Shown piece by piece: positions 24,478 through 47,324 of a stretch of DNA of 64,000 bases. Made by a program: the position numbers and the translations under genes. Source of the stretch: Metallibacterium scheffleri (GTDB taxonomy: Bacteria; Pseudomonadota; Gammaproteobacteria; Xanthomonadales; Rhodanobacteraceae); contig NZ_LDOS01000001.1 of assembly GCF_002077135.1 (NCBI RefSeq), forward strand, positions 1,074,501-1,138,500, written 5' to 3'. The notes beneath the pieces are model-generated. The model made no database searches and was not told the origin of the DNA. It saw only the letters and a program-made list of their open reading frames with translations. Numbering within the stretch: position 1 is the stretch's first letter; each line of letters opens with the position of its first letter.

Positions 24478-24479
24478 AA

Positions 24480-25992: not shown

Positions 25993-25996
25993 TGCC

Positions 25997-27217: not shown

Positions 27218-27303
27218 CAGGCTGCTGTTGTGGCGCAGCGCCGGTCGGGCGCATAGCTTGCGAATCCGAAGCCGGCGACATCCGCGCGGCACCGGTGACT
27301 ATC

Positions 27304-27507
27304 ATGGACAACACGCAACGACTTTTGAGACTGCCCGCAGTCATCGCCGCGACCGGCCTGCAACGTTCGACCATTTACGACGGCATCCGCGGCGGCACGT
27401 TCCCGAAGCCGGTCAAACTTGCGCGCTTGAGCGCCTGGCCTGAAGTCGAAGTTACCGCCTGGATCGCCGACCGAATCCGCGCACGCGGCAACGGCGGTGA
27501 GCGATGA
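27304..27507 (+). CDS. alpA: AlpA-family helix-turn-helix regulator
   Basis: Small DNA-binding protein of 67 residues with the AlpA/MerR-like winged HTH: 'LLRLPAVIAATGLQRSTIYDGIRGGTFPKPVKL' followed by 'AWPEVEVTAWIADRI'. AlpA of P4-like elements acts as excisionase and transcriptional activator of excision. It starts the run of overlapping genes; its TGA overlaps the ATG of the DUF3631 gene by four bases. ATG 27304 is preferred; a GTG three codons upstream is possible. Confidence 0.88.
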   Translation: MDNTQRLLRLPAVIAATGLQRSTIYDGIRGGTFPKPVKLARLSAWPEVEVTAWIADRIRARGNGGER

Positions 27508-31570: not shown

Positions 31571-32599
31571 ATGAAGCTGTCCCGCCTGCTCTCGTTGTTG
31601 CTGCCTGCCGTGGCACTGGCTGTCGGATTTTCCGCGCCAGCGCTGGCGTTTGGGCGGCCGCTGAGCAATGCGCGCTCGCAGGAAGCTCTGGCCAGTTCAC
31701 TGTTGCATCGTGTGCCGGCGCAGATCACCGAAATCGCGCCCGGCGTGGTGTTGCCGTTGTGGCGCGGCAACGACGGCAAGCTGCTGGCCATCGTGGCGTC
31801 CAGTCCGGCGGGTGACGCAGGTGGTTGGCGTGCGCCCTTGCTTGGCGGCGCACTCAATCTGCGCGCGGTCGATGCCTCACCGCTGCTCACCGAAACGCTG
31901 CGTTATCAGTTCGACAACGGCTTGCGCGCCGATGCACGCATCGCGCAACGCAGTTGGCGCGCGCCTGGGTGCGCCGTGGCGCAGGCGGGCATGCGCGACG
32001 GGCTGTGCGCGGACGGGCAAACCAATCTGGGCAGCGTGACCACGGCGGAATTCGGCGCCGGCTATGCGCGCGGCCCCGTGGGCATGGCGTTCTCGCTGGG
32101 TTTGTCGCGTCCGAGCACTCTCGGCGGGCCGCTGGTTGCGCCCACGCTGGCTCCGCTGTACGGCGGCGCTGGCGTGATGGCTGGCCTGCCCCTGGATTTA
32201 CTCGGCAGCACCACGCGGTTCAGCGCCAACAGCGACCTCGCCATGGGTGGCTTGCGTTTTGAACTCGGCGCCAGCTACGGCCGCATCAACACCGACGCCA
32301 CCCTGCTGCCCGGCCTCGATGGCCTGAACGAAAAGTCCCTGCACTTCGGCATCGGCCGCGGCTCCATCACCGGGGTGGTGACCGGTCGCGTGCTCACCCC
32401 CGGCAGCGCGTTGGGCAACGGTCTTGATCTGCAGTCCTGGACCACGGTGGACCTCGGCATCACCTGGCGTCTGCCATGGCACGGCGCTTTCAGCGTCGGT
32501 GCACAAAACCTGTGGTCGCAGGGTGCACCACCGCCGGGCGCCAACGTGCCCGGTGCTGCCGCGCGGATTCCCTACGTGCAATACCAACAGGATCTCTGA
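31571..32599 (+). CDS. exported, probably outer-membrane protein of unknown function
   Basis: Protein of 342 residues with a clear signal peptide (1-26, ending 'GFSAPALA'). The mature part is rich in Gly, Ala and Leu with alternating hydrophobic stretches. It has repeated amphipathic strand-like segments in the second half ('TTAEFGAGYARGPVGMAFSLGLS', 'SWTTVDLGITWRLPWHGAFSVGAQNLW'), which suggests a small beta-barrel. The C terminus does not end in the usual aromatic residue. I recognise no named family. It is a single gene between the integrative element and a TonB-dependent receptor. Confidence 0.6.
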   Translation: MKLSRLLSLLLPAVALAVGFSAPALAFGRPLSNARSQEALASSLLHRVPAQITEIAPGVVLPLWRGNDGKLLAIVASSPAGDAGGWRAPLLGGALNLRAVDASPLLTETLRYQFDNGLRADARIAQRSWRAPGCAVAQAGMRDGLCADGQTNLGSVTTAEFGAGYARGPVGMAFSLGLSRPSTLGGPLVAPTLAPLYGGAGVMAGLPLDLLGSTTRFSANSDLAMGGLRFELGASYGRINTDATLLPGLDGLNEKSLHFGIGRGSITGVVTGRVLTPGSALGNGLDLQSWTTVDLGITWRLPWHGAFSVGAQNLWSQGAPPPGANVPGAAARIPYVQYQQDL

Positions 32600-32970: not shown

Positions 32971-35952
32971 ATGAACCTCGATACGAACAAGCTTTCATCA
33001 GCCGTACGCCTGGCGCTCACGCTGGGCGCGGTTGCCACTGCAGGTGTCGCCGGCAGCGCCATGGCGCAGGACACCACCACCACTCCACCCAGCAGCACCA
33101 AGGCAAAAGAACTGCAGACCATCGTGGTTACCGGTTCGCGCATCCGCCGCGTGGACATCGAAACCTCGAACCCGGTCATCTCGATCAGCCGTCAGGCGAT
33201 CCAGAGCACCGGCAGCCCGACCCTCGGCAGCGTGATCCAGGCGATCCCGGCTAACACCGGCAGTTTTGCCAATCCGCAGACCAACAACGGCGGCGGCACC
33301 GGTGCATCCACCGTCAATCTGCGCGGCCTTGGTTCCAACCGCACACTGGTCCTGCTCAACGGCAACCGCATCATCAACAATGATCTGAACTCGATCCCGA
33401 CCTCCATGGTCGAGAGCGTCGAGGTGCTGAGTGATGGCGCTTCGGCCATTTATGGCGCCGACGCGATCGGCGGCGTGGTCAACATCATCACCCGCAGGAA
33501 CTACCAGGGCGCAGAGTTCAGCACCGACTACGGCATCTCCGATCACAGCGATGGCGCGCGTCAGGGTTACAGCTTCACCTTCGGCCAGTCTGGCGACAAG
33601 GGAAGCATCATGGGCGGCATCCAGTACAACAAGCAGGATGCGATCCTGGCCGGCAACCGCAGTTTCTCCAAGAACTCGGTCTCGCTCACCGGCAGCACCA
33701 ACACCCCGCCGTATCAGTATGTCGGTGGTTCGACCTTCAACCCGGCCGAGAACATTCAGTTGCCCACCGCCATGCAGAGCACCTTTGGCTGCTCGCGCGT
33801 GTCATTGAATCCGGGTGGCAACAGCCAGGTCGTCAGCACCGCCAATTACCACTGCTTTGGCAACAGCGACAAATTCAACTACGCGCCGCTCAACCTGATC
33901 ATGACCCCGCAGGAGCGCACCTATGCGTGGTTGAGCGGCGACTACCATCTGTCGGACAACGTCGACGCGTACTTGCAGTTCTATCACACCAAGGCATCCT
34001 CGGCGTTCCAGCTGGCTCCGGCGCTGCTGGGTTCGCTATACGGCGCTTCGATCTCGGCGCAGAGCTATTACAACCCCTTCGGCGTGGCTTACAACGGTGT
34101 CAATGGTCTGGACTTCCGCGCGCGTCTCACCGGCGCGGGCAACCGCTTCGCGCAGTACGGCACGACGACTGACCAGTTGTTCACCGGTTTGAAGGGCAGC
34201 CTGCAGCTACTCGGGCACGACTGGGACTGGAACCTGGGCCTGGGCTACGGCCACACCTCGCAGGTGACGATCACCGGCGGCCTGCCCAACGTGCAGACAC
34301 TGAATCAGGAGATGGGTCCGTCAGGCCTTGATGCAGCCGGCAATGTGGTCTGCGGTGTACCTGTAGCTGGGGTCGTTCCGACCGCCAACATCATCTCGGG
34401 CTGTATCCCGCTGAATGGATTCGCCGTGAATGATGGTGCCAATGCTGCGCTGCTCAGGGCGGCTGCGGCCGAGGCCGTGAGCAACGCCTACAGCCTGCAG
34501 CGTTACGAGCATTTCGACGCCAACGGCGCCTTGTTCGATCTGCCGGGCGGCACGGTACGTCTGGCCGTCGGTGCGGATTATCGGCAGGAGTATTCCAACA
34601 GCATCGTCGACCCGGTCCTGCTGTTGAATCCGGCCACCGGCAACTGCACCCTGGGCAGCCAGTGCAGTGCCAATCTGCAGGGCGGTTACAACGTCAAGGA
34701 AGCCTACGGCGAGTTGTTCGTCCCGATCCTCAAGGACCTGCCCTTCGCCAAGTCGCTGAACGTGACCCTGGGTGATCGTTATTCCAAGTACAGCACCTTC
34801 GGCAATACCAACAACACCAAACTGGCGTTCGAGTGGCGTCCGATCAACGACCTGCTGCTGCGCGGCACGGTGACCACGGTGTTCCGTGCGCCCACGGTGG
34901 GCGATGTGTACGGCTCGCCCGTCAGCAGCGCGCCCAAGCTCAGCAGCGATCCCTGCAACGGCTATACCGGCAGCCCGGTCGATCCGGCCTGCGTCAACGT
35001 GCCGACCAATGGCACCTTCGTGAACAACGACGTGGCCACCGGCCAGCAGATCAAGGCGGTCAATTCCGGCTCGGCCTACGCGGGCTTCCCGCTGGGCGCG
35101 GAGAAGGGCAAGTCCTTCGACTGGGGCTTGGTGTATGACCCGAGCTGGCTGCCTGGCTTCTCCACCTCGCTGGATTTCTGGCGCGTTTACCTGAACAACA
35201 CCATCACCAGCGTTGGCGCGCAGACGATCCTGGATCTGTGCTCCGCGGGTCAGACCCAGTATTGCCCGCTGATCACGCGTTTCGGACCCGGCCCCAACCA
35301 GGGTCAGATCGCGCAGATCCTGCAGCCCACGGTCAATCTGGGGCGGACGGACACCAGTGGTGTGGACTTCGGTTTCCGTTACAACCTGCCGCAGTTCGAC
35401 GTGATGGGTGTGGATCCTGGCCACTTCACGGTCGGCCTCAACAGCACCTACCTGTCCAAGTTCGATGTACAGACCGCGCCGGGCCTGCCGGGCAACAGCG
35501 TGTACCACATGGCGGGTCACTTCCTGCCGTTTGGTTCCGCGGCACAGGGTGCGTGCCCGACCTCGGTCGGCGGCATCTGCCTGTTCTCGCGCTGGCGTGC
35601 GCAGGCCAACATCGGCTGGACGATGGGCCCGTGGGAAGCGTCGTGGCGCATGCGCTACATCGGCAAGTTCCGCCTGGGTTCCACCGATCCGTCGCAGGGC
35701 ATGAGCGCGATTCCGAGCTTCGCGGCCAACAATCCGCAGGAGCTTGATTTCGGCTCGACCACCTACAACGACGTCTCGCTTGCCTACGAGATCCAGCCGA
35801 TCAACACCAAGATCCAGGTGGGCATCAACAACGTGTTCAACAAGCAGCCGCCGTTCCTGTATGCGAACAACACGCTGAATGCGAACACGGATCCGGCCGA
35901 TTTCGACCTGATCGGGCGCTACTACTGGGGTCGCGTGACCGTCAAGTTCTGA
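32971..35952 (+). CDS. TonB-dependent receptor
   Basis: Outer-membrane receptor of 993 residues. A signal peptide covers 1-32 ('AGVAGSAMAQ'). The TonB-box region is 'LQTIVVTGSRIRR' (about 49-61). The plug contains 'STVNLRGLGSNRTLVLLNGNRI' and 'VESVEVLSDGASAIYGADAIGGVVNIITRR', diagnostic for the family. The barrel ends in aromatic 'RVTVKF'. No Oar-type N-terminal domain is present. It lies directly upstream of the sulfotransferase/hydroxylase cluster but is separated from it by a terminator. Ligand unknown; receptors of this type in Xanthomonadales take up glycans, peptides or siderophores. Confidence 0.95.
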   Translation: MNLDTNKLSSAVRLALTLGAVATAGVAGSAMAQDTTTTPPSSTKAKELQTIVVTGSRIRRVDIETSNPVISISRQAIQSTGSPTLGSVIQAIPANTGSFANPQTNNGGGTGASTVNLRGLGSNRTLVLLNGNRIINNDLNSIPTSMVESVEVLSDGASAIYGADAIGGVVNIITRRNYQGAEFSTDYGISDHSDGARQGYSFTFGQSGDKGSIMGGIQYNKQDAILAGNRSFSKNSVSLTGSTNTPPYQYVGGSTFNPAENIQLPTAMQSTFGCSRVSLNPGGNSQVVSTANYHCFGNSDKFNYAPLNLIMTPQERTYAWLSGDYHLSDNVDAYLQFYHTKASSAFQLAPALLGSLYGASISAQSYYNPFGVAYNGVNGLDFRARLTGAGNRFAQYGTTTDQLFTGLKGSLQLLGHDWDWNLGLGYGHTSQVTITGGLPNVQTLNQEMGPSGLDAAGNVVCGVPVAGVVPTANIISGCIPLNGFAVNDGANAALLRAAAAEAVSNAYSLQRYEHFDANGALFDLPGGTVRLAVGADYRQEYSNSIVDPVLLLNPATGNCTLGSQCSANLQGGYNVKEAYGELFVPILKDLPFAKSLNVTLGDRYSKYSTFGNTNNTKLAFEWRPINDLLLRGTVTTVFRAPTVGDVYGSPVSSAPKLSSDPCNGYTGSPVDPACVNVPTNGTFVNNDVATGQQIKAVNSGSAYAGFPLGAEKGKSFDWGLVYDPSWLPGFSTSLDFWRVYLNNTITSVGAQTILDLCSAGQTQYCPLITRFGPGPNQGQIAQILQPTVNLGRTDTSGVDFGFRYNLPQFDVMGVDPGHFTVGLNSTYLSKFDVQTAPGLPGNSVYHMAGHFLPFGSAAQGACPTSVGGICLFSRWRAQANIGWTMGPWEASWRMRYIGKFRLGSTDPSQGMSAIPSFAANNPQELDFGSTTYNDVSLAYEIQPINTKIQVGINNVFNKQPPFLYANNTLNANTDPADFDLIGRYYWGRVTVKF

Positions 35953-35974: not shown

Positions 35975-36008
35975 GAGCCGCGCGGCGCGTCCGCGCGGCT
36001 CTTTTTTT
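35975..36008 (+). terminator. rho-independent terminator between receptor and sulfotransferase cluster
   Basis: Perfect 11-bp stem GAGCCGCGCGG/CCGCGCGGCTC with a five-base loop, followed by seven T. It lies 23 bases after the receptor stop and 12 bases before the next start, so the downstream gene depends on read-through or on a promoter inside the receptor gene. Confidence 0.93.
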
Positions 36009-36020
36009 GCGGGGATACCC

Positions 36021-37823
36021 ATGCAGGATATCGTTCACGCGTTGCGGTCCGGCGACCCGGCGCATGCCGAAGCACTGAGTCGCGAACGCCTGCGCGCTCA
36101 ACCAGGCGACGAGAATCTGCTGGTGCTGCTCGCGCTAAGCCTGCACCACCAGAGTCGCAATGAAGAAGCCGTGGCCGTGCACCAGCAACTGACGCAATTG
36201 TTTCCGGATGCCGGCTTGCATTGGGCCAATCTTGCCGTGGCGTTGCGTCAGAGCGGGCATGTGCCCGAGGCCATCAGCGCCTGCGAGCAAGGTTTGCGGG
36301 CCGCGCCCGACGACCCCGAGTTGCTGGCCAGCCTGGGCAGCATGCGCTTGCGCCTGCGCGAGTATGAAACCGCGCGCGATCTGCTGCTGCATGCGCACGC
36401 GCTCAAGCCGCAAGCGGCCGACATCGCCATACAGGCTGCGCAGGCCGCGCTCGCCTGCCGCGATTATTTTGCTGAAGATCTGATTCAGGGCTGGCGCGGA
36501 TGGTTGCCGCTGGCCGATGGTCCCCAGTTCGATCTCGCCTTCGCTCTGATGACCATCGGCGACGCAGCAGCCGCGCAGGAATTGCTGGAGGATCTGGTGG
36601 CGCGCGCGCCCGGACATCTTCACGCGATCGCGCTGCTGGCCAGCGTCTATGAGCGTAGCAACCGGCTGCAGGACGCGCGCGTGCTGATCGAGCGCATCAA
36701 GCTGCAGGTGCCTGATCCAGCGGGATCGGTGGCGCACGACATCGCACACAGCGAGGCCAGACTGGCCGAGCGTGCCGGTGATTTCACCGGTGCGCGCGCG
36801 TTGCTCGATGCGCGTGGCCCGCGCAGCCCCGAGGATTTCGATCACTACTTCGCGCTGGCGCAGGTTTGCGACAAGCTGGATGAGCGCACGGCGGCGCTGC
36901 AGGCGCTGCAAACCGCGCATGCGCTGCAGATCGAGGACATGCGCCGCGCCGCGCCACAGCGTTTCCTGCCCGATGCACCGATGTTTCCGGCTGCCAACTA
37001 CACGCTCAGCAACGAGGACTACACAGCCTGGCCGCAGTTGCGTGCACCGGATACCGCGCAGTCACCAATCTTCATCGTCGGCTTCCCGCGCTCCGGCACG
37101 ACCCTGCTTGAGCAAATGCTCGACGCACATCCGGCCCTGCAGTCGATGGACGAGCGTCCGTTCTTCAATGTGCTGGGTGATCGGCTGTCCGCTGCAGGGT
37201 TGCGCGTGCCGCGTGAGCTGGCGCGCATGCAGCAAAGCGACTGCGATTTGCTGCGCGAGGGTTACTGGGAACTGGTGCGCTCGAAGATTGCGCGCAAGCC
37301 GGACACGCAATTGGTCGACAAGAATCCGCTGAACATGCTGTGGCTGCCGCTGATCCACCGGCTGTTTCCCAACGCACGTTACATTCTCGCGTTGCGCGAT
37401 CCGCGCGATGTGCTGCTGAGCAATTACTTCCAGAACTTTCGTTCGGTAGTGCTGGGCGCGGTGTGCGCCGATGTCGAATCATTGGCGCGCGGCTATGTCA
37501 CTGCCATGACGTATTGGCTGCACCACGTCGAGCTGTTCAAACCGCAGGTATTCGTGTCGCGTTACGAGACGCTGGTCGCCGAACCGGAATTGCAGGCCAG
37601 GCGCCTGGCGGCGTTCCTCGGGCTGATGGATGCGCAGCCCCTGCTCAATTCGCAGGCGCGCGCCCAGGAGAAGGGCTACATCGCCACGCCCAGTTACACC
37701 GAGGTCATCCAGCCGATCACGCCGCGCCGGGTCAATCGCTGGCAGCGCTATCGCGAGGCGCTGCAGCCGGCCCTGCCGATCCTCGAGCCGATGTTGCGGC
37801 ACTGGGGTTACGCTATCGACTAG
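36021..37823 (+). CDS. TPR-repeat sulfotransferase (1)
   Basis: Protein of 600 residues. The N-terminal half (about 1-320) is tetratricopeptide repeats ('HWANLAVALRQSGHVPEAISACEQGL', 'LLASLGSMRLRLREYETARDLLLHA'). The C-terminal half is a Sulfotransfer_3-type domain with the PAPS 5'-phosphosulfate loop 'GFPRSGTT' (354-361) and the 3'-phosphate motif 'RDPRDVLLS' (459-467), both intact. Such proteins resemble tyrosylprotein sulfotransferases and are expected to sulfate a protein or glycan with PAPS. No signal peptide is seen, so it probably acts in the cytoplasm. ATG 36021 follows GCGGGGATA. It converges on paralog 2. Confidence 0.9.
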   Translation: MQDIVHALRSGDPAHAEALSRERLRAQPGDENLLVLLALSLHHQSRNEEAVAVHQQLTQLFPDAGLHWANLAVALRQSGHVPEAISACEQGLRAAPDDPELLASLGSMRLRLREYETARDLLLHAHALKPQAADIAIQAAQAALACRDYFAEDLIQGWRGWLPLADGPQFDLAFALMTIGDAAAAQELLEDLVARAPGHLHAIALLASVYERSNRLQDARVLIERIKLQVPDPAGSVAHDIAHSEARLAERAGDFTGARALLDARGPRSPEDFDHYFALAQVCDKLDERTAALQALQTAHALQIEDMRRAAPQRFLPDAPMFPAANYTLSNEDYTAWPQLRAPDTAQSPIFIVGFPRSGTTLLEQMLDAHPALQSMDERPFFNVLGDRLSAAGLRVPRELARMQQSDCDLLREGYWELVRSKIARKPDTQLVDKNPLNMLWLPLIHRLFPNARYILALRDPRDVLLSNYFQNFRSVVLGAVCADVESLARGYVTAMTYWLHHVELFKPQVFVSRYETLVAEPELQARRLAAFLGLMDAQPLLNSQARAQEKGYIATPSYTEVIQPITPRRVNRWQRYREALQPALPILEPMLRHWGYAID

Positions 37824-37850
37824 CGCGAGATGCGTTCGTCGCGCATGCCA

Positions 37851-39494
37851 TCACGCATCAGGAAACATGGCGAGTTCCGGAATCGCTTGCGCATACGCGC
37901 GCCAGCGACCAATCGAGCGCGAATAAACGGGTTGTCGCGCCTGCCACAAACTTGCCGTGGCGATACTGCCGGGCGCGGTTGCATCGGGCGAGGATTGCAG
38001 CGGATCGATGCCGATCCATGCGCCGAGTGCAGCAATGCACGAGTCGGGTCTGGCGATGAATGTTTCGTAATCCACGCGGTGGATCGCACGCGGATAGCGT
38101 TGCTGCCAGTGCGCCATCAATTGTTCGCAGCCATGCATGAAGGCGCGGATCTCGTCGAAATCGAAAGCGTAGCCATGCTGCGCGTCGGCGAAGTCCTGCA
38201 TCCACAGCGACAGCGCCGTAGCGCGCGCTGCGCGGTGGCAATGCACGATTTTCGCGTGCGGCCACAGGCTCAGGATCAGGTCGAGAAACAGCAGGTTCAA
38301 GGGCTGTTTGTCGAGATAGAAGCGTGCCGGCGCGTCATCCTGCAGCAAGTGCGATTGATAGATGTCGGCAAGCTCGTGCAAACGCGACGCGGCGGCGCTG
38401 GCAGGGTCGGGCAGTTGCCGCGCCAAGTGTTGCAGCCATGGCAACTCGCCGCGATTGCGCACGCCCGCATGACTCGAAAGACGCGCGGCAACCAGGCTGC
38501 TGCCGGAACGTGGAATGCCGACGATGAAGACCGGGGTCCAGTCAGCCGGTCGTGGCATCGGCGCCGGTGCCTGTGCGCACAGACGCGATTGCACCAGTCG
38601 CTCCCAATCATCGCGCGACCAGGATCGCAGTTGCCTGCGCAGTGCATTGCCTTCGGAGAACCGTGTGGCCGCCTGCCCGATCTCATCAATATCATCGAAG
38701 CCCTTGCCCAGCGCGAACAACAGGGATGCGCGTGCACGTAGCGAAAGATCGCTGCGCGTGAGCGCCTGTTCGAACAACGCGAAATCTGGATGCGATGCCT
38801 CGGCATAACGCTGCGCGATGGCCAGCCCGTTGGCGACAAACCATTCGTGGGCCCGCTCGTCATGCGCCACGACCTGCATGAAATGGGCGCGCGCATGGGT
38901 AAAGTGCCCGAGCTGGTTGGCCAGGCTTCCGGCCTGCATGTGCAGGCGCGCATCCGTGCAACCGCCAGCGATGGCGTTCTCGCATAAGCGTAGGGCTTCA
39001 GTTTTGCGATCGCAGCCATCAAGGATTTCCACTGCTTGGATCAAGACATCGACTGGCTGTGTAGTCGCGGCAAACAGCTGCGATGTCACGCTGGCCGCGG
39101 CCCCGGCGCGGCCGGCCTGCGCCAGGGCGCGCGCCAGGGTCAAGGTCGTCGCGGCATCGCCCGGGAAATCGCGCTCGATGGTTTCGAGCGCTGCCGTGGC
39201 CAATGCGAGCTGGCCACTTTCGAATAGGACCATGGCAAGTGTGCGGCGTAGATCCAGTGTGTCCGGATACTGCGCGAGCGCGGCCCGCGCGACGTGCCCG
39301 GCGAGTGCCGATTGCCGACGCAGGCGCAGCTGTTGAATGCACTGCAGCCACTCGGTTACGGTTGCATCGGCGAGCGCTGCGGTCAGTTGTGCACAGGCCA
39401 CTTCGCAGGGGAGTGCGTCGATTAGCTCCAGCGCCGAGATCCAGGCTGGGCGTGCTGGCGCGCCTGCAGGCACGCGTGATTCATCCGGTGACAT
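37851..39494 (-). CDS. TPR-repeat sulfotransferase (2), divergent 3'-phosphate motif
   Basis: Protein of 547 residues, the only member of the cluster on the minus strand. TPR-like helices cover about 20-290 ('ALAGHVARAALAQYPDTLDLRRTLAMVLFESGQ'). The sulfotransferase domain begins with the intact loop 'GIPRSGSS' (326-333). The usual 'RD..D..LS' segment is replaced by 'HCHRAARATALSLWMQDF': the Ser is kept but the acidic residues are lost. The C-terminal 'ATASLWQARQPVYSRSIGRWRAY' closely matches paralog 3, so these two are nearest relatives. It may be an active variant or a degenerate regulator. ATG 39494 lacks a strong ribosome site. Confidence 0.85.
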   Translation of the reverse strand: MSPDESRVPAGAPARPAWISALELIDALPCEVACAQLTAALADATVTEWLQCIQQLRLRRQSALAGHVARAALAQYPDTLDLRRTLAMVLFESGQLALATAALETIERDFPGDAATTLTLARALAQAGRAGAAASVTSQLFAATTQPVDVLIQAVEILDGCDRKTEALRLCENAIAGGCTDARLHMQAGSLANQLGHFTHARAHFMQVVAHDERAHEWFVANGLAIAQRYAEASHPDFALFEQALTRSDLSLRARASLLFALGKGFDDIDEIGQAATRFSEGNALRRQLRSWSRDDWERLVQSRLCAQAPAPMPRPADWTPVFIVGIPRSGSSLVAARLSSHAGVRNRGELPWLQHLARQLPDPASAAASRLHELADIYQSHLLQDDAPARFYLDKQPLNLLFLDLILSLWPHAKIVHCHRAARATALSLWMQDFADAQHGYAFDFDEIRAFMHGCEQLMAHWQQRYPRAIHRVDYETFIARPDSCIAALGAWIGIDPLQSSPDATAPGSIATASLWQARQPVYSRSIGRWRAYAQAIPELAMFPDA

Positions 39495-39570
39495 GATGCC
39501 GTGGTACGCGCTGTGATGGATGCGATACCGCGGTGATCCGCGGAATTTGAAACCAGGGCAAGGCGGGGCA

Positions 39571-41193
39571 ATGGTCGATGTTGAAAAAATGCTGGCGCGA
39601 TTCGCGGACGCGATTGCGCGCGCGGACCCCGCCAATCCTTTGCTGGATCTGGTCGGCAGCCTGTCGCCGCTGCCCGTGCAAGTCTGGGCCGCTGTCGCCG
39701 ACGGGCTGGTACGGCAATCGTGGCCCAAGGCGGCACTTGCCGTTCTGGCCGAGGCCGAGGTGCGTTTCGGCAGGCAGGCACTGATCGAGTTTCATCGCGC
39801 CTTAGCCTATCGCGCCATCGGCGACATGGACAATGCGGCTGCCTGCGCGCGGGCGGCCGCGCGCGCGGCACCGCAGTGGCTGCAGCCGGTCTGGTTCGTC
39901 GCGGATGGATTGCGCGAGCGCGGACGCACGCATGCAGCGGCATCGATGCTGTGTGATTTCGCCATGCAGCCTGAAATCCTGAAAGATGTCGACACGGTCT
40001 GCACCTGCATGAAGTTCATGATCGAATGCGCCGAGTCAGGCTTGGCCCATGCGTTGGGTCGCGCGGCAATGGTGGCGCATCCACATCACCTTCCCCTCAT
40101 GGAGTTGCTGGCTAAAACGGCGCTGGAGACAGGGCAATTCGATGAGGCGCGAAATTTCTATCGCGACCTCGCGCTTGGTCCGCATGCTGCGCGGGCTCGG
40201 CTTGCGGCACTTGGCCTGGCGTTGAGCAAGCGCTTCGACAATGCGGCCGACACGGATATCGCGCTCATCGATGGCATGCTACAGAGGTCGGCTCCCGCCA
40301 GCACGAAGGCCAGCGTCCATTTCGCGCGCGCCAAGATCAGTGACGATTTGCGTGATTACCGCGCTGCCGCGGAGCATTTGCGCATCGCCAACGCCGCCGC
40401 GCGCGCCGTGCAGCCATGGGATCGCGCGCAGTGGTTGCGTGACAAGGCGCGTGCCTTGCAGGGGCAGTTGCCGCGCAATCGGGCACCTGATCGGGCATGC
40501 GTGCCGGTTTTCGTCATCGGCATGCCACGTAGTGGCACCACGCTGTTGTCCGAGTTGATGGCGCGCCACGCCGGCATCGTGTCGCGCGGAGAACTCAACT
40601 TCGCCGAGCATATCGATCGCGCCGTCACCGGCACGCCGCGACAGGCATGGGAGGATGCCTTGACTTCCAGTGCCGCCATGTACCGGACGCACATCATCCG
40701 GGATGATGCAGCGGCACGGGTTTATATCGACAAAAACCCCATGAACTTTCTGCACCTCGACTGGATCACGGCCGCGCTTCCCGAGGCAAGGATCATTTAC
40801 TGCGCACGGCACAAAGCCGATGTCGCGCTGTCGCTGTGGTTCCAGTTTTTCGAGAGTCCGGCGACACGCTTCAGCCACGACTTCGCCTGGATCAGGGAAG
40901 TCGATGCCGGCTGCGAGGAAATCGTGTCTTACTGGTCCGCACGCGCGAGCATTCTGCGTGTGGCTTACGAGGATCTGGTGCACGATCGGCACGCCGCGAT
41001 GGTGCGCGTGCTGGCGCACATCGGCTATGACGCCGCTGCGTCCGCGTCCGTGTCTGCTGTCGCGCCGGTGGCGCCGACCGGGCAGATTGCCACCTCGAGT
41101 CTGTGGCAAGCGCGCCAGCCGGTGTATGCCAGCTCGATCGGGCGCTACCGGCACTACCTGGAATTCATCCCTGAGCTGAAATCGTTCCTGTAA
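39571..41193 (+). CDS. TPR-repeat sulfotransferase (3)
   Basis: Protein of 540 residues with N-terminal TPR-like helices ('ALIEFHRALAYRAIGDMDNAAACARAAARAA', to about 300) and a C-terminal sulfotransferase domain. The PAPS loop is 'GMPRSGTT' (317-324). The later motif is 'CARHKADVALSLWFQFF', in which the Asp and Ser of the 3'-phosphate site are retained. The C terminus 'TSSLWQARQPVYASSIGRYRHYLEFIPEL' is shared with paralog 2. It is divergent from paralog 2, with 76 bases between starts, and begins a plus-strand run of four genes. ATG 39571 has GGCGGGG upstream. Confidence 0.88.
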   Translation: MVDVEKMLARFADAIARADPANPLLDLVGSLSPLPVQVWAAVADGLVRQSWPKAALAVLAEAEVRFGRQALIEFHRALAYRAIGDMDNAAACARAAARAAPQWLQPVWFVADGLRERGRTHAAASMLCDFAMQPEILKDVDTVCTCMKFMIECAESGLAHALGRAAMVAHPHHLPLMELLAKTALETGQFDEARNFYRDLALGPHAARARLAALGLALSKRFDNAADTDIALIDGMLQRSAPASTKASVHFARAKISDDLRDYRAAAEHLRIANAAARAVQPWDRAQWLRDKARALQGQLPRNRAPDRACVPVFVIGMPRSGTTLLSELMARHAGIVSRGELNFAEHIDRAVTGTPRQAWEDALTSSAAMYRTHIIRDDAAARVYIDKNPMNFLHLDWITAALPEARIIYCARHKADVALSLWFQFFESPATRFSHDFAWIREVDAGCEEIVSYWSARASILRVAYEDLVHDRHAAMVRVLAHIGYDAAASASVSAVAPVAPTGQIATSSLWQARQPVYASSIGRYRHYLEFIPELKSFL

Positions 41194-41287
41194 AGCATCC
41201 GCCCGCAGCGGTTGCCGGTGCGGTTTGAGGGTGTTGAATGCATCAGTTACAGTCGCCCATCACCTGATTTGCCAAGCATCGATCCGG

Positions 41288-42616
41288 ATGAATCCAATTT
41301 CTGCTGATGGTGCGGGAGCGGTAGCCCGCCTCGTGCAGGCCGCGCAGGCCGCGCTCGCGCGTGGGGTGATGATCGAGGCCGAACGCGCGTATGCCGCGGT
41401 GCTGGATATCGAGCCGGCGCATGCGGAGGCGCTGGCCTTCGTGGCCGCTCGCGCGCTGGCCAGCGGGCGCGCGGGTGATGCGCTGAGCCTGTACGCGCGC
41501 CTGGTCGCGGCGCAGCCAGGTGATGTGACCGCGCTGACCGGTCTCGGTCAGGCGCAGTTGACCTCCGGCCAGTTTGCCGAGGCGAGCGCATCGTTGAGTG
41601 CGGCTCTGGCGCTGGCGCCCGATGCCTTTGTCGCGCGTTTTCATCTGGCGCAGACACTCGAACGCAGTGGCGATGCGCATGGCGCGCTGGTGCACTATTT
41701 CCGCGCGATCAGCGAGGCCCAAGGCAGTGGGCGCTGGCTCAACGATGCCACCACGCACCCCTCGCTGCGCGCGCCGTTGCAGCGCGCGATGGCCTACGTC
41801 GACAAGGGCCGGCTGGCCCTGTATGACCAGGTACTCGAACCTTTGCGACAGCGTTTCGGGACGTCGGAACTGGCGCGCGTCGAGCAGTGCCTGCGCATTT
41901 ATCTGCACCTGCAGCCACCGCCGTATCAGGATGCACGCCAGCGGCCGACCTTCTTGTATTTCCCGGGCCTGCCGACAGCACCGTATCTGCCGAAAGCCGC
42001 CATGCGCTGGCTCGACCGGCTTGAAGCCAGCACCTCCGTCATTCGCGAAGAGATGTTGCGTGTGCTGGATGAGCAACGCGGATTCGAGCCGTTTCTGCGT
42101 TTTCACAAGACCGAAGAAGCCAGGAATTACTTGACCGGCAAGGACGGCACGGGGCACTGGAACGCGTATTTCTTTTACCGCCACGGCGAGCGCTATGCGG
42201 ACAACAGCGAACAGTGTCCGCGAACCTTTGCCGCGCTCGAAGCCGCGCCACTGCTGCGCATCCGCGAGCATGCGCCGGAGATCTGCTTCTCCTTGCTGAC
42301 GCCGGGTTCGCACATCCTGCCGCATCGCGGCGTCACCAACACGCGCACGGTGGTGCATTTGCCTTTGCTGGTGCCTGCCGATTGCGCGCTCAATGTCGGC
42401 GGTGAATTGCACGCATGGCGCGAGGGCGAGGCCGTGGCGTTCGACGATACCTACGAGCATGAAGCGTGGAATCGCAGCGAGCACAACCGCGTCATCGTGC
42501 TGATGGATGCCTGGAATCCGCATCTGACCGACGCCGAGCGCCTGGCGATCGGCGACTTGGTCATCGCCATCGGTGAATTCGGCAAGGCGGCCGGGCAGGA
42601 ATTGAATCTGGCCTGA
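41288..42616 (+). CDS. TPR plus aspartyl/asparaginyl beta-hydroxylase fusion
   Basis: Protein of 442 residues. TPR repeats (about 10-150: 'ALARGVMIEAERAYAAVLDIEPAHAEALAFVAARALASG') precede a 2-oxoglutarate/Fe(II) oxygenase domain of the AspH/LpxO family. Key residues align with the human AspH active site: the 'PHRGVTNTR' block with H346 and R353, the 'FDDTYEHEAWN' block with H391, and the 2-oxoglutarate-binding R401 ('HNRVIVLMDAW'). In AspH this domain hydroxylates Asp/Asn in proteins, and in LpxO the lipid A acyl chain. The TPR fusion favours a protein substrate; that is inference. It lies 94 bases after sulfotransferase 3. Confidence 0.88.
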   Translation: MNPISADGAGAVARLVQAAQAALARGVMIEAERAYAAVLDIEPAHAEALAFVAARALASGRAGDALSLYARLVAAQPGDVTALTGLGQAQLTSGQFAEASASLSAALALAPDAFVARFHLAQTLERSGDAHGALVHYFRAISEAQGSGRWLNDATTHPSLRAPLQRAMAYVDKGRLALYDQVLEPLRQRFGTSELARVEQCLRIYLHLQPPPYQDARQRPTFLYFPGLPTAPYLPKAAMRWLDRLEASTSVIREEMLRVLDEQRGFEPFLRFHKTEEARNYLTGKDGTGHWNAYFFYRHGERYADNSEQCPRTFAALEAAPLLRIREHAPEICFSLLTPGSHILPHRGVTNTRTVVHLPLLVPADCALNVGGELHAWREGEAVAFDDTYEHEAWNRSEHNRVIVLMDAWNPHLTDAERLAIGDLVIAIGEFGKAAGQELNLA

Positions 42617-42693
42617 TCACGGCGGCCCGTGCATTTCCAGGGGCCATTACCATCTGCTGCGCGTGGCATTCGCGGGCGCGCGCCGGGAGCATC

Positions 42694-43530
42694 ATGGGCA
42701 ACATCGTCTGGTTGTCGTCCTATCCGAAGTCAGGGAACACCTGGCTACGCGCTTTCATCGCGAACCTGGTCGCCGACGCGCGCGCGCCGCTGGCATTCGA
42801 CACGTGGCCACGATATGCCGTGGACGAGGCCAATCCGGAGCGCTTCAGCCGTGTCGCGGGCGCGCCTTCCACCGATCTCGATGTCGATGCCCTGTGCCGG
42901 TCGCGCGTTGCCGTGCAGGCAGACATCGCCGCTGCAGCGCGTGGCACGGTATTCGTCAAAACGCACAATCTCGCCGGCAGTTTCGACGGACACGCGTTGC
43001 AGAACTGGACGGTGACTGCGGGGGCGATTTACGTGATACGCAATCCGCTGGACGTGTGTATCAGCTTCGCGGCACATTTCGGGCTGACGCTCGACACCGC
43101 CATCGCGCGCATGGCGGATGCCAATCTCGCCACCGGCAATGACGCGCTGTTCGTCAGCGAGATCATCGGCTCGTGGTCGCAGCATGTCGCCAGTTGGGCC
43201 GCGCTGGAGGCACGTGGCGTGCTGCTGGTGCGCTACGAGGACATGCTGGACAAACCACTCAAGACCTTCACCCGCGTCGCGCGCATGCTCAAGCTGGGCG
43301 ACGACCGCGCGCGCATCATGCGCGCCATCGAGTTCAGTGACTTCAAGCGTCTGCAGCGCATGGAGCGCAGCGATGGCTTTCGCGAGGCGGTATCCGGCGC
43401 GGTGCCGTTTTTTCGCAAGGGCCTCGCCAAACAATGGCGCGAGCGCCTCGGTCGCGAGCAGGTCGCGCGGATCATCGCCGACCATCGCGAAGTCATGCGC
43501 CGATTCAATTACCTGCCTGCGGGGTACTGA
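42694..43530 (+). CDS. short sulfotransferase (Sulfotransfer_1 type)
   Basis: Protein of 278 residues, a stand-alone sulfotransferase without TPR. The PAPS loop 'YPKSGNTW' (10-17) is the classic cytosolic SULT form, unlike the 'PRSGTT' loop of the TPR paralogs. The 3'-phosphate motif is 'YVIRNPLDVCISFA', and 'LLVRYEDMLDKP' and 'FFRKGLAKQWRERL' are typical of the C-terminal half (the last is the RKG-type 3'-phosphate loop). So two distinct sulfotransferase subfamilies are combined in one locus. It is followed by paralog 4 with one base between stop and start. Confidence 0.92.
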   Translation: MGNIVWLSSYPKSGNTWLRAFIANLVADARAPLAFDTWPRYAVDEANPERFSRVAGAPSTDLDVDALCRSRVAVQADIAAAARGTVFVKTHNLAGSFDGHALQNWTVTAGAIYVIRNPLDVCISFAAHFGLTLDTAIARMADANLATGNDALFVSEIIGSWSQHVASWAALEARGVLLVRYEDMLDKPLKTFTRVARMLKLGDDRARIMRAIEFSDFKRLQRMERSDGFREAVSGAVPFFRKGLAKQWRERLGREQVARIIADHREVMRRFNYLPAGY

Positions 43531-43531
43531 C

Positions 43532-45358
43532 ATGGATCGCATCTCGCTGCAGGACCGCGCCCGGCAGGTGCTGACGGCCCTGCGCGAGCAGCGCATCGAC
43601 GCTGCACTGCATGCCGCGCGCGTGCTGCTCGCCGACTACCCCGATGACGAAAGCGCCTTGTCGCTGTGCGCGAGCTGCGAACAGCAGGCTGGAAATCACG
43701 ATCTGGCGGCCGTGCTTTTTGCGCGCCTGACGCAGGCGCATCCGCGCACCTGGCAATACTGGAACAACCTCGGCAATGCGCAGCGCGCGCTGGGTCAGGT
43801 CGAGCACGCGCGCCTGGCCTTCGAACGCGCGCTGGAATTGAATCCGGCCGCGCCGCGGGTGCGCACCAACCTCGGATTATTGCTGCTCAATGCCGGCAAT
43901 CCAGCGCAGGCCGCGACGCATTTGCGCGCCGCCAGCGCGGCGCCCGATGCGGAACCGGGCATGCGCATCTGGGCCGCCGTGGCCGCCCATGCGGCGGGTG
44001 ACGCCGTCACGGCGGAAGAATTGGTGCGGGGCTGGGAGCATTGGCCACGCGATTCCGACGAGGCCTGGCTGGAACTGGGCTGGTTGCTGCTCGAGTTGGG
44101 CCACTTTGACGATGCCGAGCACGTTTTCGCGAGTGCGTTCGCCGGAGTTGCGGCCAGAATCCGTGCCAAGGCACGCCATGCATTGCTGCTCGAGCGCATC
44201 AATCAGCCGGATGCAGCCGAACGGCTGCTTGCAGACCTGCCTGATCCCGACCAGATCGCGGCAGCGGAAGCACGACAGGAACTGCTGCATGCACGCGGCA
44301 TCCTGGCGGCGCGGCGCAAGGACTGGCCGGCTGCGCGGCAGGCGTTGCAACAAGCGCTGGCCATCGCCGGCAGCACGCGCGGTCGCGCGGCGATGTATTT
44401 CGCCCTGGCGCGTGCGTGTGATCGCCTGGGTGATGTCGATGCCACGCTTGCCGTGTTGCGCGAGGCGCATGCCTTGCTCGCGGCAACCAGCGCGCAGCGC
44501 ACGATCCATGAACGCTGGCTGCCTGTGCTGACCACGGGATTGCCAGCGGCGGAGACCGCGTATTCGCAGCGGGCCCCCGCACCATCCGCTGCACAATCTC
44601 CGGTGTTCGTGCTGGGCTTCCCGCGCTCCGGCACCACGCTGCTGGAGCAGATGCTCGCGGCACACCCGGATTTCGCCAGCATCGATGAGCGCCCGCTGGT
44701 GTTGTCCGCCATACGCCGCATGCAGGCGCTAGGCATTGCCTATCCGCAGGGCTTGGGCGCGCTGCGCGCGGAACAGATCGAGGATTTGCGCGCCGGCTAC
44801 TGGCGCGCGGCCGATGCCCTGGCCACGCGCGCGCCTGGACAGCGTCTGGTGGACAAGAATCCGCTGAACATGCTGGCCTTGCCGATGATCCTGCGGCTGT
44901 TTCCGCTTGCGCGCGTGGTCATCTGTCGACGCCATCCATGCGATGTGGTCCTGAGTTGCTATATGCAGCCGTTTGCGGATCCAGAGGTTGCGGAAATGAG
45001 CGCGTCGCCTGCCAGTCTTGCCCGCGCCTATGCCGCGTTCGATGCGCAATTTCGCGAGCAGGCCGCGCTGCTGGGCGCCACGCCATTCGAGTTGCGCTAC
45101 GAGGACCTGGTGACCCATCCGCAAGCCGCGTTGCAAGGTCTTGGCAACTGCCTTGGTGTCCTGGATACGACTGCGATGGCCCACTTCGCGTCCAGCGCGC
45201 AGCAGCGCGGCTACATCAGTACGCCGAGTTATGCGCAGGTGGTCGAGTCCTTGCGCGCCGACAGCATCGGACGTTGGCGGCGTTACGCGCGGGTCTTCGC
45301 GCCGTTGCTGCCGACGCTGGCGGAATCGATCCGCCAGGCGGGTTACACGACAGACTGA
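43532..45358 (+). CDS. TPR-repeat sulfotransferase (4)
   Basis: Protein of 608 residues, most like paralog 1. The TPR array is about 10-330 ('YWNNLGNAQRALGQVEHARLAFERALELNP' is a near-canonical unit). The sulfotransferase domain has the loop 'GFPRSGTT' (362-369) and 'ICRRHPCDVVLSCYMQPF', in which the Asp and Ser are retained. The C-terminal 'YISTPSYAQVVESLRADSIGRWRRYARVF' matches the 'TPSYTEVIQPI...VNRWQRYREAL' end of paralog 1. ATG 43532 is one base after the stop of the short sulfotransferase gene. Its own stop is four bases from that of convergent pckG. Confidence 0.9.
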   Translation: MDRISLQDRARQVLTALREQRIDAALHAARVLLADYPDDESALSLCASCEQQAGNHDLAAVLFARLTQAHPRTWQYWNNLGNAQRALGQVEHARLAFERALELNPAAPRVRTNLGLLLLNAGNPAQAATHLRAASAAPDAEPGMRIWAAVAAHAAGDAVTAEELVRGWEHWPRDSDEAWLELGWLLLELGHFDDAEHVFASAFAGVAARIRAKARHALLLERINQPDAAERLLADLPDPDQIAAAEARQELLHARGILAARRKDWPAARQALQQALAIAGSTRGRAAMYFALARACDRLGDVDATLAVLREAHALLAATSAQRTIHERWLPVLTTGLPAAETAYSQRAPAPSAAQSPVFVLGFPRSGTTLLEQMLAAHPDFASIDERPLVLSAIRRMQALGIAYPQGLGALRAEQIEDLRAGYWRAADALATRAPGQRLVDKNPLNMLALPMILRLFPLARVVICRRHPCDVVLSCYMQPFADPEVAEMSASPASLARAYAAFDAQFREQAALLGATPFELRYEDLVTHPQAALQGLGNCLGVLDTTAMAHFASSAQQRGYISTPSYAQVVESLRADSIGRWRRYARVFAPLLPTLAESIRQAGYTTD

Positions 45359-45362: not shown

Positions 45363-47144
45363 TCAGCCCTGCGCCGCGCGTCGCGTTGGTTTATTGGCCT
45401 CCAGCGCCTCCAGCACGCGCCGCCGTTCGCTTTCCAGGCGGGCCGGCAGGCGCGCGCCGAATTCGCTGAAATAATCCCCCAGCGCCGCCATTTCGCGTTG
45501 CCAGCCCGCCGGGTCGACATGCAGCAGCGCCTCTAGCGCCGCAGCGGGCAGGCGCAACCCGGCCGTGTCCAGGTAGTGCGCGTGCGGCATCCGGCCGATC
45601 GGTGTCTCCACGGCCGCGGCGCCGCCCTCGCAGCGCGCCAGCATCCACGCCAGCACGCGCAGGTTGTCGCCAAAGCCCGGCCATAGAAAGTTGCCGTCGC
45701 TGCCTTTGCGAAACCAGTTGACGTGGAAGATTCTCGGCAACTGCAGGCCGGGCCGGTCGAAACTCAGCCAGTGCGCGAAGTAGTCGGCGAAGTTGTAGCC
45801 GCAGAAGGGTTTCATCGCCATCGGATCGCGGCGCAGCACGCCGACGGCGCCGCTGGCGGCGGCGGTGGTTTCCGAGCCCATGGCCGCGCCCAGCATGACG
45901 CCGTGCGCCCAGTCGCGGGCCTCGAATACCAGGGGCAGCAGCGATTCGCGGCGGCCGCCGAAGACGATGGCGCTGATCGGCACGCCCTGCGCATCCTCGG
46001 CGTGCGGCGAGAAACTCGGGCACTGCCGCGCGCTGACGGTGAAGCGCGAATTGGGATGCGCCGCCGGACCGCGTGCGGGGTCGAACGGGCGCCCCTGCCA
46101 GTCCAGCGCGGGCACGCGCGCGTCCAGGCCTTCCCACCATGGCTGGCCATCGGCGGTGACGGCGACGTTGGTGAAGATCGTGTGGTGATCGAGCATGGCC
46201 AGCGCGTTGGGATTGGTCTTGGCGCTGGTGCCGGGGGCCACGCCGAAGAACCCGGCCTCGGGGTTGATCGCCCATAGGCGGCCGTCCTTGCCGGGCGCCA
46301 TCCAGCAGATGTCGTCGCCCACCGTCCACACTTTCCAGCCGGCGCGGCGCATGTCCGCGGGCGGCACCAGCATGGCCAGGTTGGTTTTGCCGCAGGCCGA
46401 GGGAAACGCCGCGGCGATGTAGTGCGTCTGCCCCTGCGGACTCTGGATGCCGACGATCAGCATGTGTTCGGCCAGCCAGCCTTCCTGCCGCGCCTGCCAC
46501 GAAGCGATGCGCAGCGCGTGGCACTTCTTGCCCAGCAGTGCGTTGCCGCCGTAGCCCGAGCCGTAGGATTTGATGGCGAGCTCTTCGGGGAAGTGCATGA
46601 TGAAGCGGCGCTCGGGGTCGAGCTCGCCGGTGGAGTGCAGACCCTTGACGAAGCGGCCCTCGCGCTCGATGCGCGCCAGCGCCGGCGCGCCCATGCGCGT
46701 CATCAGGTGCATGTTGGCCACCACGTAGGCGCTGTCGGTGATCTCCACGCCACAGCGCGCCAGCGGCGAGTCGATCGGGCCCATGCAGTACGGCACCACG
46801 TACAGCGTGCGCCCGCGCATGCAGCCGGCGAACAACGCATCCATCTTCGCGTGCGCTTCCGCGGGCGCCAACCACGGATTGTTGGGGCCGGCATCGGCGC
46901 GCTCGCGCGTGCAGATGTAGGTGAGGTGCTCGACGCGCGCCACATCGCCCGGATGCGAGCGGTGCAGGGTGCAGCGCGGATGCGTGTGCGGATTCAGCGC
47001 GTGCAGTTCGCCGCGTTCGAGCATCTGCGCGCCGAGCGCGGCGTATTCGGCCTGCGTGCCGTCGCACCAGTGGATGCGTGCGGGTTGGGTCAGAAGCGCG
47101 ACTTCATCGAGCCACTGATTCAAGGCGGCGAGCGTGCTGGGCAT
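45363..47144 (-). CDS. pckG: phosphoenolpyruvate carboxykinase (GTP)
   Basis: GTP-dependent PEP carboxykinase, 593 residues, converting oxaloacetate to PEP for gluconeogenesis. The kinase loop 'FPSACGKTN' (247-255) includes the reactive C251 of the GTP-type enzyme. Other family blocks are 'VVPYCMGPIDSPLARCGVEITDSAYVV', 'YGGNALLGKKCHALRIAS', 'VGDDICWMAPGKDGRLWAINPEAGFFGVAPGTS' and 'FGGRRESLLPLVFE'. The length is normal for the family. The ATG at 47144 follows GGAAACC. It is a single gene, with 180 bases to the next gene. Confidence 0.96.
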   Translation of the reverse strand: MPSTLAALNQWLDEVALLTQPARIHWCDGTQAEYAALGAQMLERGELHALNPHTHPRCTLHRSHPGDVARVEHLTYICTRERADAGPNNPWLAPAEAHAKMDALFAGCMRGRTLYVVPYCMGPIDSPLARCGVEITDSAYVVANMHLMTRMGAPALARIEREGRFVKGLHSTGELDPERRFIMHFPEELAIKSYGSGYGGNALLGKKCHALRIASWQARQEGWLAEHMLIVGIQSPQGQTHYIAAAFPSACGKTNLAMLVPPADMRRAGWKVWTVGDDICWMAPGKDGRLWAINPEAGFFGVAPGTSAKTNPNALAMLDHHTIFTNVAVTADGQPWWEGLDARVPALDWQGRPFDPARGPAAHPNSRFTVSARQCPSFSPHAEDAQGVPISAIVFGGRRESLLPLVFEARDWAHGVMLGAAMGSETTAAASGAVGVLRRDPMAMKPFCGYNFADYFAHWLSFDRPGLQLPRIFHVNWFRKGSDGNFLWPGFGDNLRVLAWMLARCEGGAAAVETPIGRMPHAHYLDTAGLRLPAAALEALLHVDPAGWQREMAALGDYFSEFGARLPARLESERRRVLEALEANKPTRRAAQG

Positions 47145-47324
47145 GCGGCGGTTTCCGAGGCGGTTGCACCCGACCATAACGGCCGTGCGCGAGCATGATC
47201 ACGCCGCAGTGCAGCGCGCGAATCGATGGAAACGTTTACGGCCGCAGGCCGCGTCGCGCGGGTCGTGCGGGCGCCGCAGACGGCATTGCCAGCGCGCCTG
47301 CAGCGGCGCTGCGCCGGCCGCGGC

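Follow-up and report, generated by a model that had tools for sequence, protein, structure and literature searches.

Organization of the locus

The window, a stretch of 64,000 nucleotides from Metallibacterium scheffleri (contig NZ_LDOS01000001.1, positions 1,074,501 to 1,138,500), carries a 9.3-kb cluster of sulfotransferase genes behind the gene of a TonB-dependent receptor (TBDR). Four of the encoded sulfotransferases (STs), termed ST1 to ST4, are fused to tetratricopeptide repeats (TPRs), a fifth is short, and a sixth protein, termed TPR-oxygenase, joins TPRs to a 2-oxoglutarate (2OG)-Fe(II) oxygenase domain. The features are given below by window coordinates and strand, with the flanking genes last.

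32971..35952, + strand: TBDR with Plug and beta-barrel domains (Pfam; signal peptide by eye)
35975..36008, + strand: intrinsic-terminator-like hairpin followed by seven T, at the TBDR/ST1 junction (sequence)
36021..37823, + strand: ST1, TPRs and a sulfotransferase domain like that of tyrosylprotein sulfotransferases (TPSTs), of the TBDR-paired lineage (Pfam, sequence and structure matches)
37851..~39494, - strand: ST2, TPRs and Sulfotransfer_3 domain, PRSGSS loop (Pfam; start uncertain, ATG at 39494 or GTG at 39401)
39571..41193, + strand: ST3, TPRs and Sulfotransfer_3 domain, PRSGTT loop (Pfam)
41288..42616, + strand: TPR-oxygenase, TPRs and PF05118 domain (AspH-like; Asp_Arg_Hydrox; Pfam and fold match)
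42694..43530, + strand: short sulfotransferase (Sulfotransfer_1), PKSGNT loop (Pfam; nearest solved structures Teg12, Teg14 and StaL)
43532..45358, + strand: ST4, TPRs and TPST-like sulfotransferase domain (Pfam; 37% identical to ST1)
31571..32599, + strand: upstream neighbour, XOO1806-family protein of 342 aa (NCBIfam XOO1806_fam, 72 bits against a cut-off of 280)
45363..47177, - strand: phosphoenolpyruvate carboxykinase (GTP), flanking housekeeping gene (NCBIfam)

All six open reading frames (ORFs) that a preliminary description had placed behind the receptor were found, by ORF and Pfam analysis, and the five 3'-phosphoadenosine 5'-phosphosulfate (PAPS) loops are exactly those it had listed, namely PRSGTT in ST1, ST3 and ST4, PRSGSS in ST2 and PKSGNT in the short sulfotransferase. 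Sulfotransfer_3 scored above the Pfam gathering score in all four TPR-sulfotransferases, as did Asp_Arg_Hydrox in the oxygenase and Sulfotransfer_1 in the short sulfotransferase. TPRs were found above cut-off in ST1, ST2 and ST4, and in ST3 with TPR_8 alone (27.1 bits). A DKxP motif is present in all four TPR-sulfotransferases, and a KTH motif in the short one. The receptor is classified as a TBDR on account of Plug and beta-barrel matches that each exceed the gathering score; an STN domain was not among its Pfam matches. ST2 alone lies on the strand opposite to the rest of the cluster; the preliminary description mentions neither this nor the hairpin between TBDR and ST1.

In the 3.76-Mb genome (5 contigs), 5 of the 11 Sulfotransfer_3 matches fall inside the 9.3 kb, which, together with the recurrence of the neighbourhood in other genomes, places the clustering beyond chance. 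The 'repeated duplication' of the preliminary description is an overstatement, as the identity between ST1 and ST4 is just 37%. Two equal-scoring TPR-sulfotransferase matches (G000:C1:1164936-1165874 and G000:C2:9355-10293) were observed close to two contig ends; given their equal scores and position they are probably one gene on overlapping contig ends. The genome also encodes a second PF05118 protein (a 337-aa frame) and has one APS kinase with which to make PAPS.

Further upstream, positions 24238-29392 hold a tRNA-Asn gene and, behind it, genes for a tyrosine integrase, a toxin-antitoxin pair of MazE/PIN type, AlpA and a DUF3631 protein; this stretch looks like a small element integrated at the tRNA gene.

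Recurrence in related genomes

Recurrence was assessed in a family sample of 147 genomes, using E<=1e-60 as the threshold for ST1-type proteins. This gave 147 ST1-type matches in 92 genomes, at least 68 of which (in 65 genomes) are preceded on their strand by a TBDR gene at a distance below 500 bp, with a median gap of 104 bp. The figure of 68 is a lower bound, because the count used 141 of the about 150 TBDR matches listed, omitting the nine weakest, and more matches exist beyond those listed; by the same count 79 ST1-type matches have no TBDR, several of them being the second sulfotransferase of a tandem. The TPR-oxygenase was matched at E<=1e-60 in 84 of the 147 genomes. Both proteins occur in 78 genomes, ST1 only in 14, the oxygenase only in 6 and neither in 49, in a count that ignores phylogeny. 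The preliminary description had made its case depend on a conserved neighbourhood and co-occurrence in related genomes; such a neighbourhood exists.

Three arrangements recur. The first is TBDR-ST1-ST2-ST-oxygenase, the second TBDR-ST1-oxygenase with adjoining peptidase genes, and in the third the oxygenase stands next to a TPR protein ending in a degenerate sulfotransferase domain, with a TBDR-ST1 pair elsewhere in most such genomes (G016 has no ST1 at E<=1e-60). The degenerate protein was observed in several genera, at L061:6650-8746 and in relatives of this locus, beside the oxygenase; its loop in L061 reads GAPGSGV.

For closer inspection, 80 named loci were kept of at least 581 contig stretches confirmed with an ST1 alignment. 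They come from Dyella, Rhodanobacter, Dokdonella, Tahibacter, Frateuria, Pseudoxanthomonas and two Xanthomonas sp., and beyond these from Nevskia, Steroidobacter, Rubrivivax, Ideonella and metagenome-assembled genomes. Genes of the relatives were called with a pooled codon model; starts are approximate and some genes split or truncated (e.g. in L039, L110, L111, L156 and L190). The TBDR gene lies directly upstream of ST1 in 67 loci, directly downstream in 2, and in neither position in 11, several of which are contig ends or mis-called genes. A full-length oxygenase is present in 30 loci, a small PF13640 2OG oxygenase (OG2) in 18 and more than one sulfotransferase in 41; 38 loci hold neither oxygenase nor OG2 within the locus.

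Class-wide, 9 of 369 sampled genomes, the present one included, gave a match at E<=1e-90. Among the eight class-wide loci (seven genomes), L237 combines within 19 kb a TBDR, three sulfotransferases, an oxygenase-sulfotransferase fusion and further oxygenases, and L238 has a sulfotransferase, OG2 and a TBDR next to one another; in the remaining six, TPR-sulfotransferases occur without this receptor.

Pairing of receptor and ST1

The distance matrices of TBDR and ST1 are correlated with a Mantel r of 0.946 (n = 90 distinct pairs), a value reached by 0 of 2000 permutations. Two controls served to separate pairing from common descent, a partial correlation on a third gene of the same locus and genomes with two pairs. 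In the 17 loci with an XOO1806 gene, r was 0.865 for TBDR and ST1, 0.369 for TBDR and XOO1806, and 0.208 for ST1 and XOO1806, leaving a partial r of 0.867. When the oxygenase took the place of the XOO1806 gene (n = 41), r was 0.97 for TBDR and ST1, and 0.629 and 0.59 for the two correlations involving the oxygenase, with a partial r of 0.955. In genomes with two TBDR-ST1 pairs, the pairs stay separate, co-diverging lineages. Lineage II of G126, for example, shares 88-91% (TBDR) and 71-82% (ST1) identity with lineage II of G029 and G039, compared with 43% and 39%, respectively, with lineage I of its own genome.

The GC-rich hairpin with its T-run ends 12 bp before the ATG of ST1. A terminator-like hairpin was found at 64 of the 90 distinct TBDR-ST1 junctions, compared with 111 of 711 junctions between same-strand genes 40-250 bp apart in the same loci, an unthinned control set of which the tested junctions form part. 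It is missing in 13 of the first 40 of the 90 junctions, including those of lineage II in L047, L054, L059, L062, L069, L074 and L076; among these 40, most lineage-II loci are without it. As the hairpin precedes the ATG of ST1, ST1 is probably expressed either by read-through or from a promoter within the TBDR gene.

Fusions and additional enzymes in relatives

With our own profiles, a PF05118-like domain fused to a sulfotransferase was detected in eight loci (L174, L182, L192, L198, L201, L202, L052 and L237), and Pfam confirmed both domains in the two proteins scanned (L192 and L202). The sulfotransferase loop reads PRSGST in 6 of the 8 fusions; in the L202 fusion, the oxygenase portion matches L-proline cis-4-hydroxylase weakly (4e-4). 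Nevskia, Steroidobacter, Rubrivivax and Ideonella possess TBDR-ST1-oxygenase together with such a fusion. These fusions are a classical hint that both chemistries serve one pathway. OG2, which was not seen in the window, is in one relative weakly similar to prolyl 4-hydroxylases (2.6e-5). In Pseudoxanthomonas sp. PXM03 (L167:3440-6820), a TPR-GT41 protein (OGT-type) and a TPR-PF13759 oxygenase are encoded directly upstream of TBDR-ST1-OG2-oxygenase.

As a separate observation, a short PF05118 protein of about 215 aa is encoded near the fusion gene in L174, L182, L192 and L198, with its domain confirmed by Pfam for L192 and L174. Adjoining it is a protein of 222-258 aa with an HLHKS(G/A)G motif, which gave no Pfam match in L192 and L174.

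Relatives and catalytic residues of the enzymes

The model of ST1 has a mean predicted local distance difference test score (pLDDT) of 91.2. Foldseek ranked SPINDLY/OGT-type and designed TPR proteins at the top and tick and human TPSTs from rank 17 onwards (TMt 0.61-0.72, 22-26% identity). By sequence, phmmer matched ST1 to the tick TPST at 3e-18 and to human TPST1/2 at 2e-14 to 9e-14, and an ST1 profile matched TPSTs at 5e-26 to 9e-23. The match extends across the whole domain and includes the 5'-phosphosulfate-binding (5'-PSB) loop PRSGTT and the 3'-phosphate-binding (3'-PB) region, so that ST1 has the TPST fold. E378 of ST1, conserved without exception in 25 sequences, aligns with the catalytic glutamate of TPSTs, which we take to be the base, E99 in TPST2. 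The TPR helices of ST1 start at residue 2 (Pfam, model), unlike the anchored layout of TPSTs. ST4 matches TPSTs more weakly than ST1 (2e-10). The nearest solved relatives of the short sulfotransferase are Teg12, Teg14 and StaL, followed by aryl sulfotransferases (SULTs). The combination of TPST-type domains with TPR arrays points to polypeptide acceptors.

The best fold matches of the TPR-oxygenase (model pLDDT 92.9) are human AspH structures, with a TMt of 0.83 and a root mean square deviation of 2.6 over the catalytic domain. H346, R353, H391 and R401, invariant in 27 of 27 sequences, align with H679, R686, H725 and R735 of AspH, and thus include the two metal-binding histidines (H679/H725) and R735. 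According to Pfam and the models, the TPRs precede the oxygenase domain, as in AspH. The best NCBIfam models were OlsC (94.5 bits, cut-off 450) and LpxO (76.4 bits, cut-off 500), both far below their cut-offs; the LpxO cut-off is strict, as an LpxO-like protein of a relative scores just 433.

Candidate substrates

Among gene calls of at least 45 aa, no small gene recurring beside ST1 was seen; shorter ORFs were not systematically searched. The XOO1806 family was tried as a substrate and rejected, since it has matches in 144 of the 147 genomes, with or without ST1, as expected of a core neighbour; none of the 147 genomes reaches the curated cut-off of the family. The XOO1806-family neighbour is thus probably not part of the system. 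Its C-terminus was observed to read PYVQYxQDL, nearly invariantly and with few exceptions, in 22 sequences (21 relatives and the window).

In L147, L192 (two copies), L201 and L202, a small secreted protein with a conserved two-cysteine motif (C...PxGS...C.T) is encoded within the cluster or next to it. As a precursor it is a lead only, because the present genome has no match at E<=0.01 and six other motif regions are without a labelled sulfotransferase. Proteins of this type (L147, L192, L201, L202 and also L215-L220) occur in 0-2 copies in the 15 genomes searched, and none of the five scanned belongs to a Pfam family above cut-off.

The lasso-peptide B2 family (PF13471) gave no match in the present genome at E<=0.001. 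In the family sample, 95 of the 147 genomes match at this threshold, mostly weakly, and 60 are over the cut-off. In four cases (G126:C1, G005:C11, G093:C16 and G136:C19), a strong match (E<=4e-17) and an ST1-type gene were observed to share a contig, about 22-38 kb apart. Neither a raxX precursor nor the RaxA/RaxB transporter was found by Pfam among the ten genes at 30.7-47.2 kb, where a very short, uncalled precursor could escape. No lipid gene, exporter or synthetase was seen among the Pfam-scanned genes, which cover the window and some relatives, most neighbours in relatives lying outside the scan.

Proposed function and alternatives

The explanation that we put forward tentatively, giving it somewhat less than an even chance, is a cytosolic module for the hydroxylation and sulfation of a peptide or protein, functionally tied to this TBDR. 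PAPS-dependent, TPST-type TPR-sulfotransferases and TPR-linked 2OG-Fe(II) oxygenases would hold an extended peptide or unfolded protein in their TPR arrays and add O-sulfate and hydroxyl groups to it. The target would most likely be a polypeptide bound up with the receptor, in the simplest case the unexported receptor precursor, and the hairpin between TBDR and ST1 would provide much receptor and little enzyme. We infer the cytosolic site, the polypeptide acceptor, the order of the steps and the receptor as target; no signal peptide was seen on the enzymes by eye, no predictor having been run. The commitment to a peptide or protein rests on two grounds, that the closest relatives of ST1, ST4 and the short sulfotransferase act on phenols of polypeptides or peptides, and that lipid, exporter and synthetase genes were not seen among the genes scanned with Pfam; among the nearest solved enzymes, TPST, Teg12/StaL and AspH are peptide or protein modifiers. 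The preliminary description had proposed one modifying machine, with the receptor or a secreted peptide as substrate or partner. A recurring functional unit is borne out by the neighbourhood, the co-occurrence, the co-diversification of TBDR and ST1 and the fusions; its peptide or protein target may be presumed from the enzyme relatives.

In a bolder form, which we consider unlikely as a whole, a hydroxylation-sulfation pathway new to bacteria, made up of enzymes like TPST, AspH and, in relatives, prolyl hydroxylase, would decorate the TBDR before export and so tune its ligand recognition, the fusions might sulfate their own hydroxyl product, and read-through of the recurring terminator would set the dose of enzyme.

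Several results weigh against a receptor-linked polypeptide module of this kind. TBDR and ST1 have matching nearest neighbours in just 51 of the 90 pairs, and in relatives the oxygenase is often encoded away from the TBDR, being contained in only 30 of the 80 named loci. Among the sulfotransferases, ST2 matches TPSTs weakly (5e-4), and a sequence search of the PDB with ST3 gave no match at E<=0.001, TPSTs included. In the TPR-oxygenase, the position of AspH R688, placed through an R688Q entry among the AspH sequence and structure matches, is occupied by V355, invariant in 27 of 27 sequences, whereas the LpxO-like protein of a relative retains Arg there. R688 of AspH is described as contacting 2OG and substrate (PMC12816917). 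Because of this replacement the TPR-oxygenase is not filed as an AspH, although fold and architecture are shared, and the AspH-type label of the preliminary description holds for the TPR-PF05118 layout, the metal ligands and the fold, but not for this residue. The identity of the oxygenase domain to human AspH (33%) is also close to that to the LpxO-like protein (30%).

The receptors themselves add further points of this kind. No conserved tyrosine specific to linked receptors was found in a comparison of 86 linked receptors (106 before thinning) and that of the window with 16 unlinked ones; well-conserved tyrosines are common to both groups, and the sole linked-specific column is N219. Contents of Tyr, Asp, Asn, Pro and acidic-Tyr are alike in linked and unlinked receptors (all p>0.09). 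Close receptor paralogues exist without ST1, and in 7 of 20 such loci fetched a GH127-type family (c27; Pfam-confirmed in L090) is encoded nearby, so sugars may be what relatives of this receptor import. Finally, we know of no case of cytosolic sulfation of Sec-exported barrel proteins. The missing signature weakens the TBDR as substrate but does not refute it, because ST1 may be present in the genomes of unlinked paralogues; as a partner, the receptor proposed in the preliminary description is favoured by its co-diversification with ST1.

The alternative that survives best, though we regard it as rather doubtful, is a shared diffusible ligand. The enzymes would mature a peptide, ribosomal or other, which is exported and then recaptured by the TBDR in the manner of a siderophore or signal, and TBDR and ST1 would co-diversify because both recognise the same molecule; the observed co-diversification fits a ligand as well as a substrate relation. 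Precedent is provided by RaxST and its sulfated secreted peptide RaxX (PMC6637879), a table in PMC10040529 hints at a sulfotransferase and an aspartyl hydroxylase beside lasso-peptide genes, and 4 of the 80 named loci encode the small cysteine-motif protein within the cluster or next to it. On the other side, the ten genes around the cluster in the window include no exporter or synthetase, and neither PF13471 nor the cysteine-motif protein has a match in this genome at the thresholds given above, the six motif regions without a labelled sulfotransferase pointing in the same direction.

Import followed by modification is clearly less probable. Here a nutrient or toxin of phenolic or peptidic nature would enter through the TBDR and then be hydroxylated and sulfated by the enzymes, for detoxification or use. 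The GH127-type glycosidase near receptor paralogues that have no ST1 suggests that this type of receptor can serve nutrient uptake, and the short sulfotransferase also resembles aryl SULTs; the TPST-type domains and TPR arrays, however, indicate polypeptide acceptors, and no recurring transporter or catabolic gene was seen in the sulfotransferase clusters, most neighbours of which lie outside the Pfam scan.

A similarly low probability is given to the modification of lipid, lipopolysaccharide or polysaccharide, with the PF05118 enzyme as an acyl-chain hydroxylase of LpxO/OlsC type and the sulfotransferases acting on glycans or lipids. OlsC and LpxO are the best NCBIfam models, in a library that may hold no AspH model, and the residue equivalent to AspH R688 is not conserved. 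Against this stand the scores far under both cut-offs, the fusion to TPRs as in AspH, and the other PF05118 protein of the genome, the 337-aa frame; the TPR-GT41 protein of L167 is the sole glycan or lipid gene among those scanned with Pfam.

Passive synteny, i.e. vertical inheritance of neighbours without common function, is disfavoured as very improbable: many of the compared genomes are closely related and the counts phylogenetically non-independent, but the locus recurs in differing surroundings and gene orders, TBDR and ST1 are correlated far more strongly with each other than with the XOO1806 gene of their locus, paralogous TBDR-ST1 pairs co-diversify, and the genes co-occur even where they are not adjacent.

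Comparison with known systems

To our knowledge, bacterial protein sulfation is known mainly from RaxX, and raxX-raxSTAB is the nearest described bacterial sulfation system. Common to RaxX-RaxST-RaxAB of Xanthomonas and the present cluster is a bacterial, PAPS-dependent sulfotransferase, which in RaxST was modelled on TPST2; homologues of raxST are reported to occur in diverse contexts without raxX (PMC6637879). In contrast to that system, the cluster comprises a set of several TPR-fused enzymes, includes an oxygenase and is linked to a receptor, and the ten genes scanned contain no raxX-like precursor, RaxA or RaxB.

With eukaryotic TPST1/2, ST1 aligns in the catalytic fold, the PRSGTT loop, an LDAHP segment, the position of the glutamate base and the 3'-PB region. 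TPST is a membrane-anchored Golgi enzyme without TPRs, whereas ST1 is bacterial and carries a TPR array, with no membrane anchor seen. OGT-type enzymes, which rank with the best structural matches to the TPRs of ST1, likewise consist of a TPR superhelix and a modifying domain, ST1 having a sulfotransferase where OGT has a glycosyltransferase. Human AspH shares with the TPR-oxygenase the union of TPRs and oxygenase in one chain and the four invariant residues equivalent to H679, R686, H725 and R735, but differs at R688, here an invariant valine, and in its substrates, EGF-like domains, none of which is known here. The glycopeptide sulfotransferases StaL, Teg12 and Teg14, nearest to the short sulfotransferase, belong to glycopeptide-antibiotic pathways.

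Titles and beginnings of abstracts gave no description of this gene set, apart from a table in PMC10040529 on halotolerance-associated ortholog clusters of Pontixanthobacter/Allopontixanthobacter, which lists under neighbouring numbers lasso B2, a sulfotransferase, an aspartyl beta-hydroxylase, a sulfotransferase, PqqD and an Asn-synthase. The numbering, from which we rather than its authors derive adjacency, hints that both chemistries share a lasso-peptide locus in these genera, and a sulfated, hydroxylated lasso peptide is possible there. Unlike those loci with lasso B2, PqqD and Asn-synthase, the window belongs to a genome without a PF13471 match. As far as searched, therefore, the parts belong to known families, and their receptor-linked combination, the co-diversification and the fusions are undescribed. 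A recurring set of TPST-like and 2OG-dependent hydroxylating enzymes, linked to a receptor and present in several lineages, would allow one to test in ordinary soil bacteria whether bacterial peptides or outer-membrane proteins are sulfated and hydroxylated; for enzymology, it would supply relatives of TPST and AspH that are soluble.

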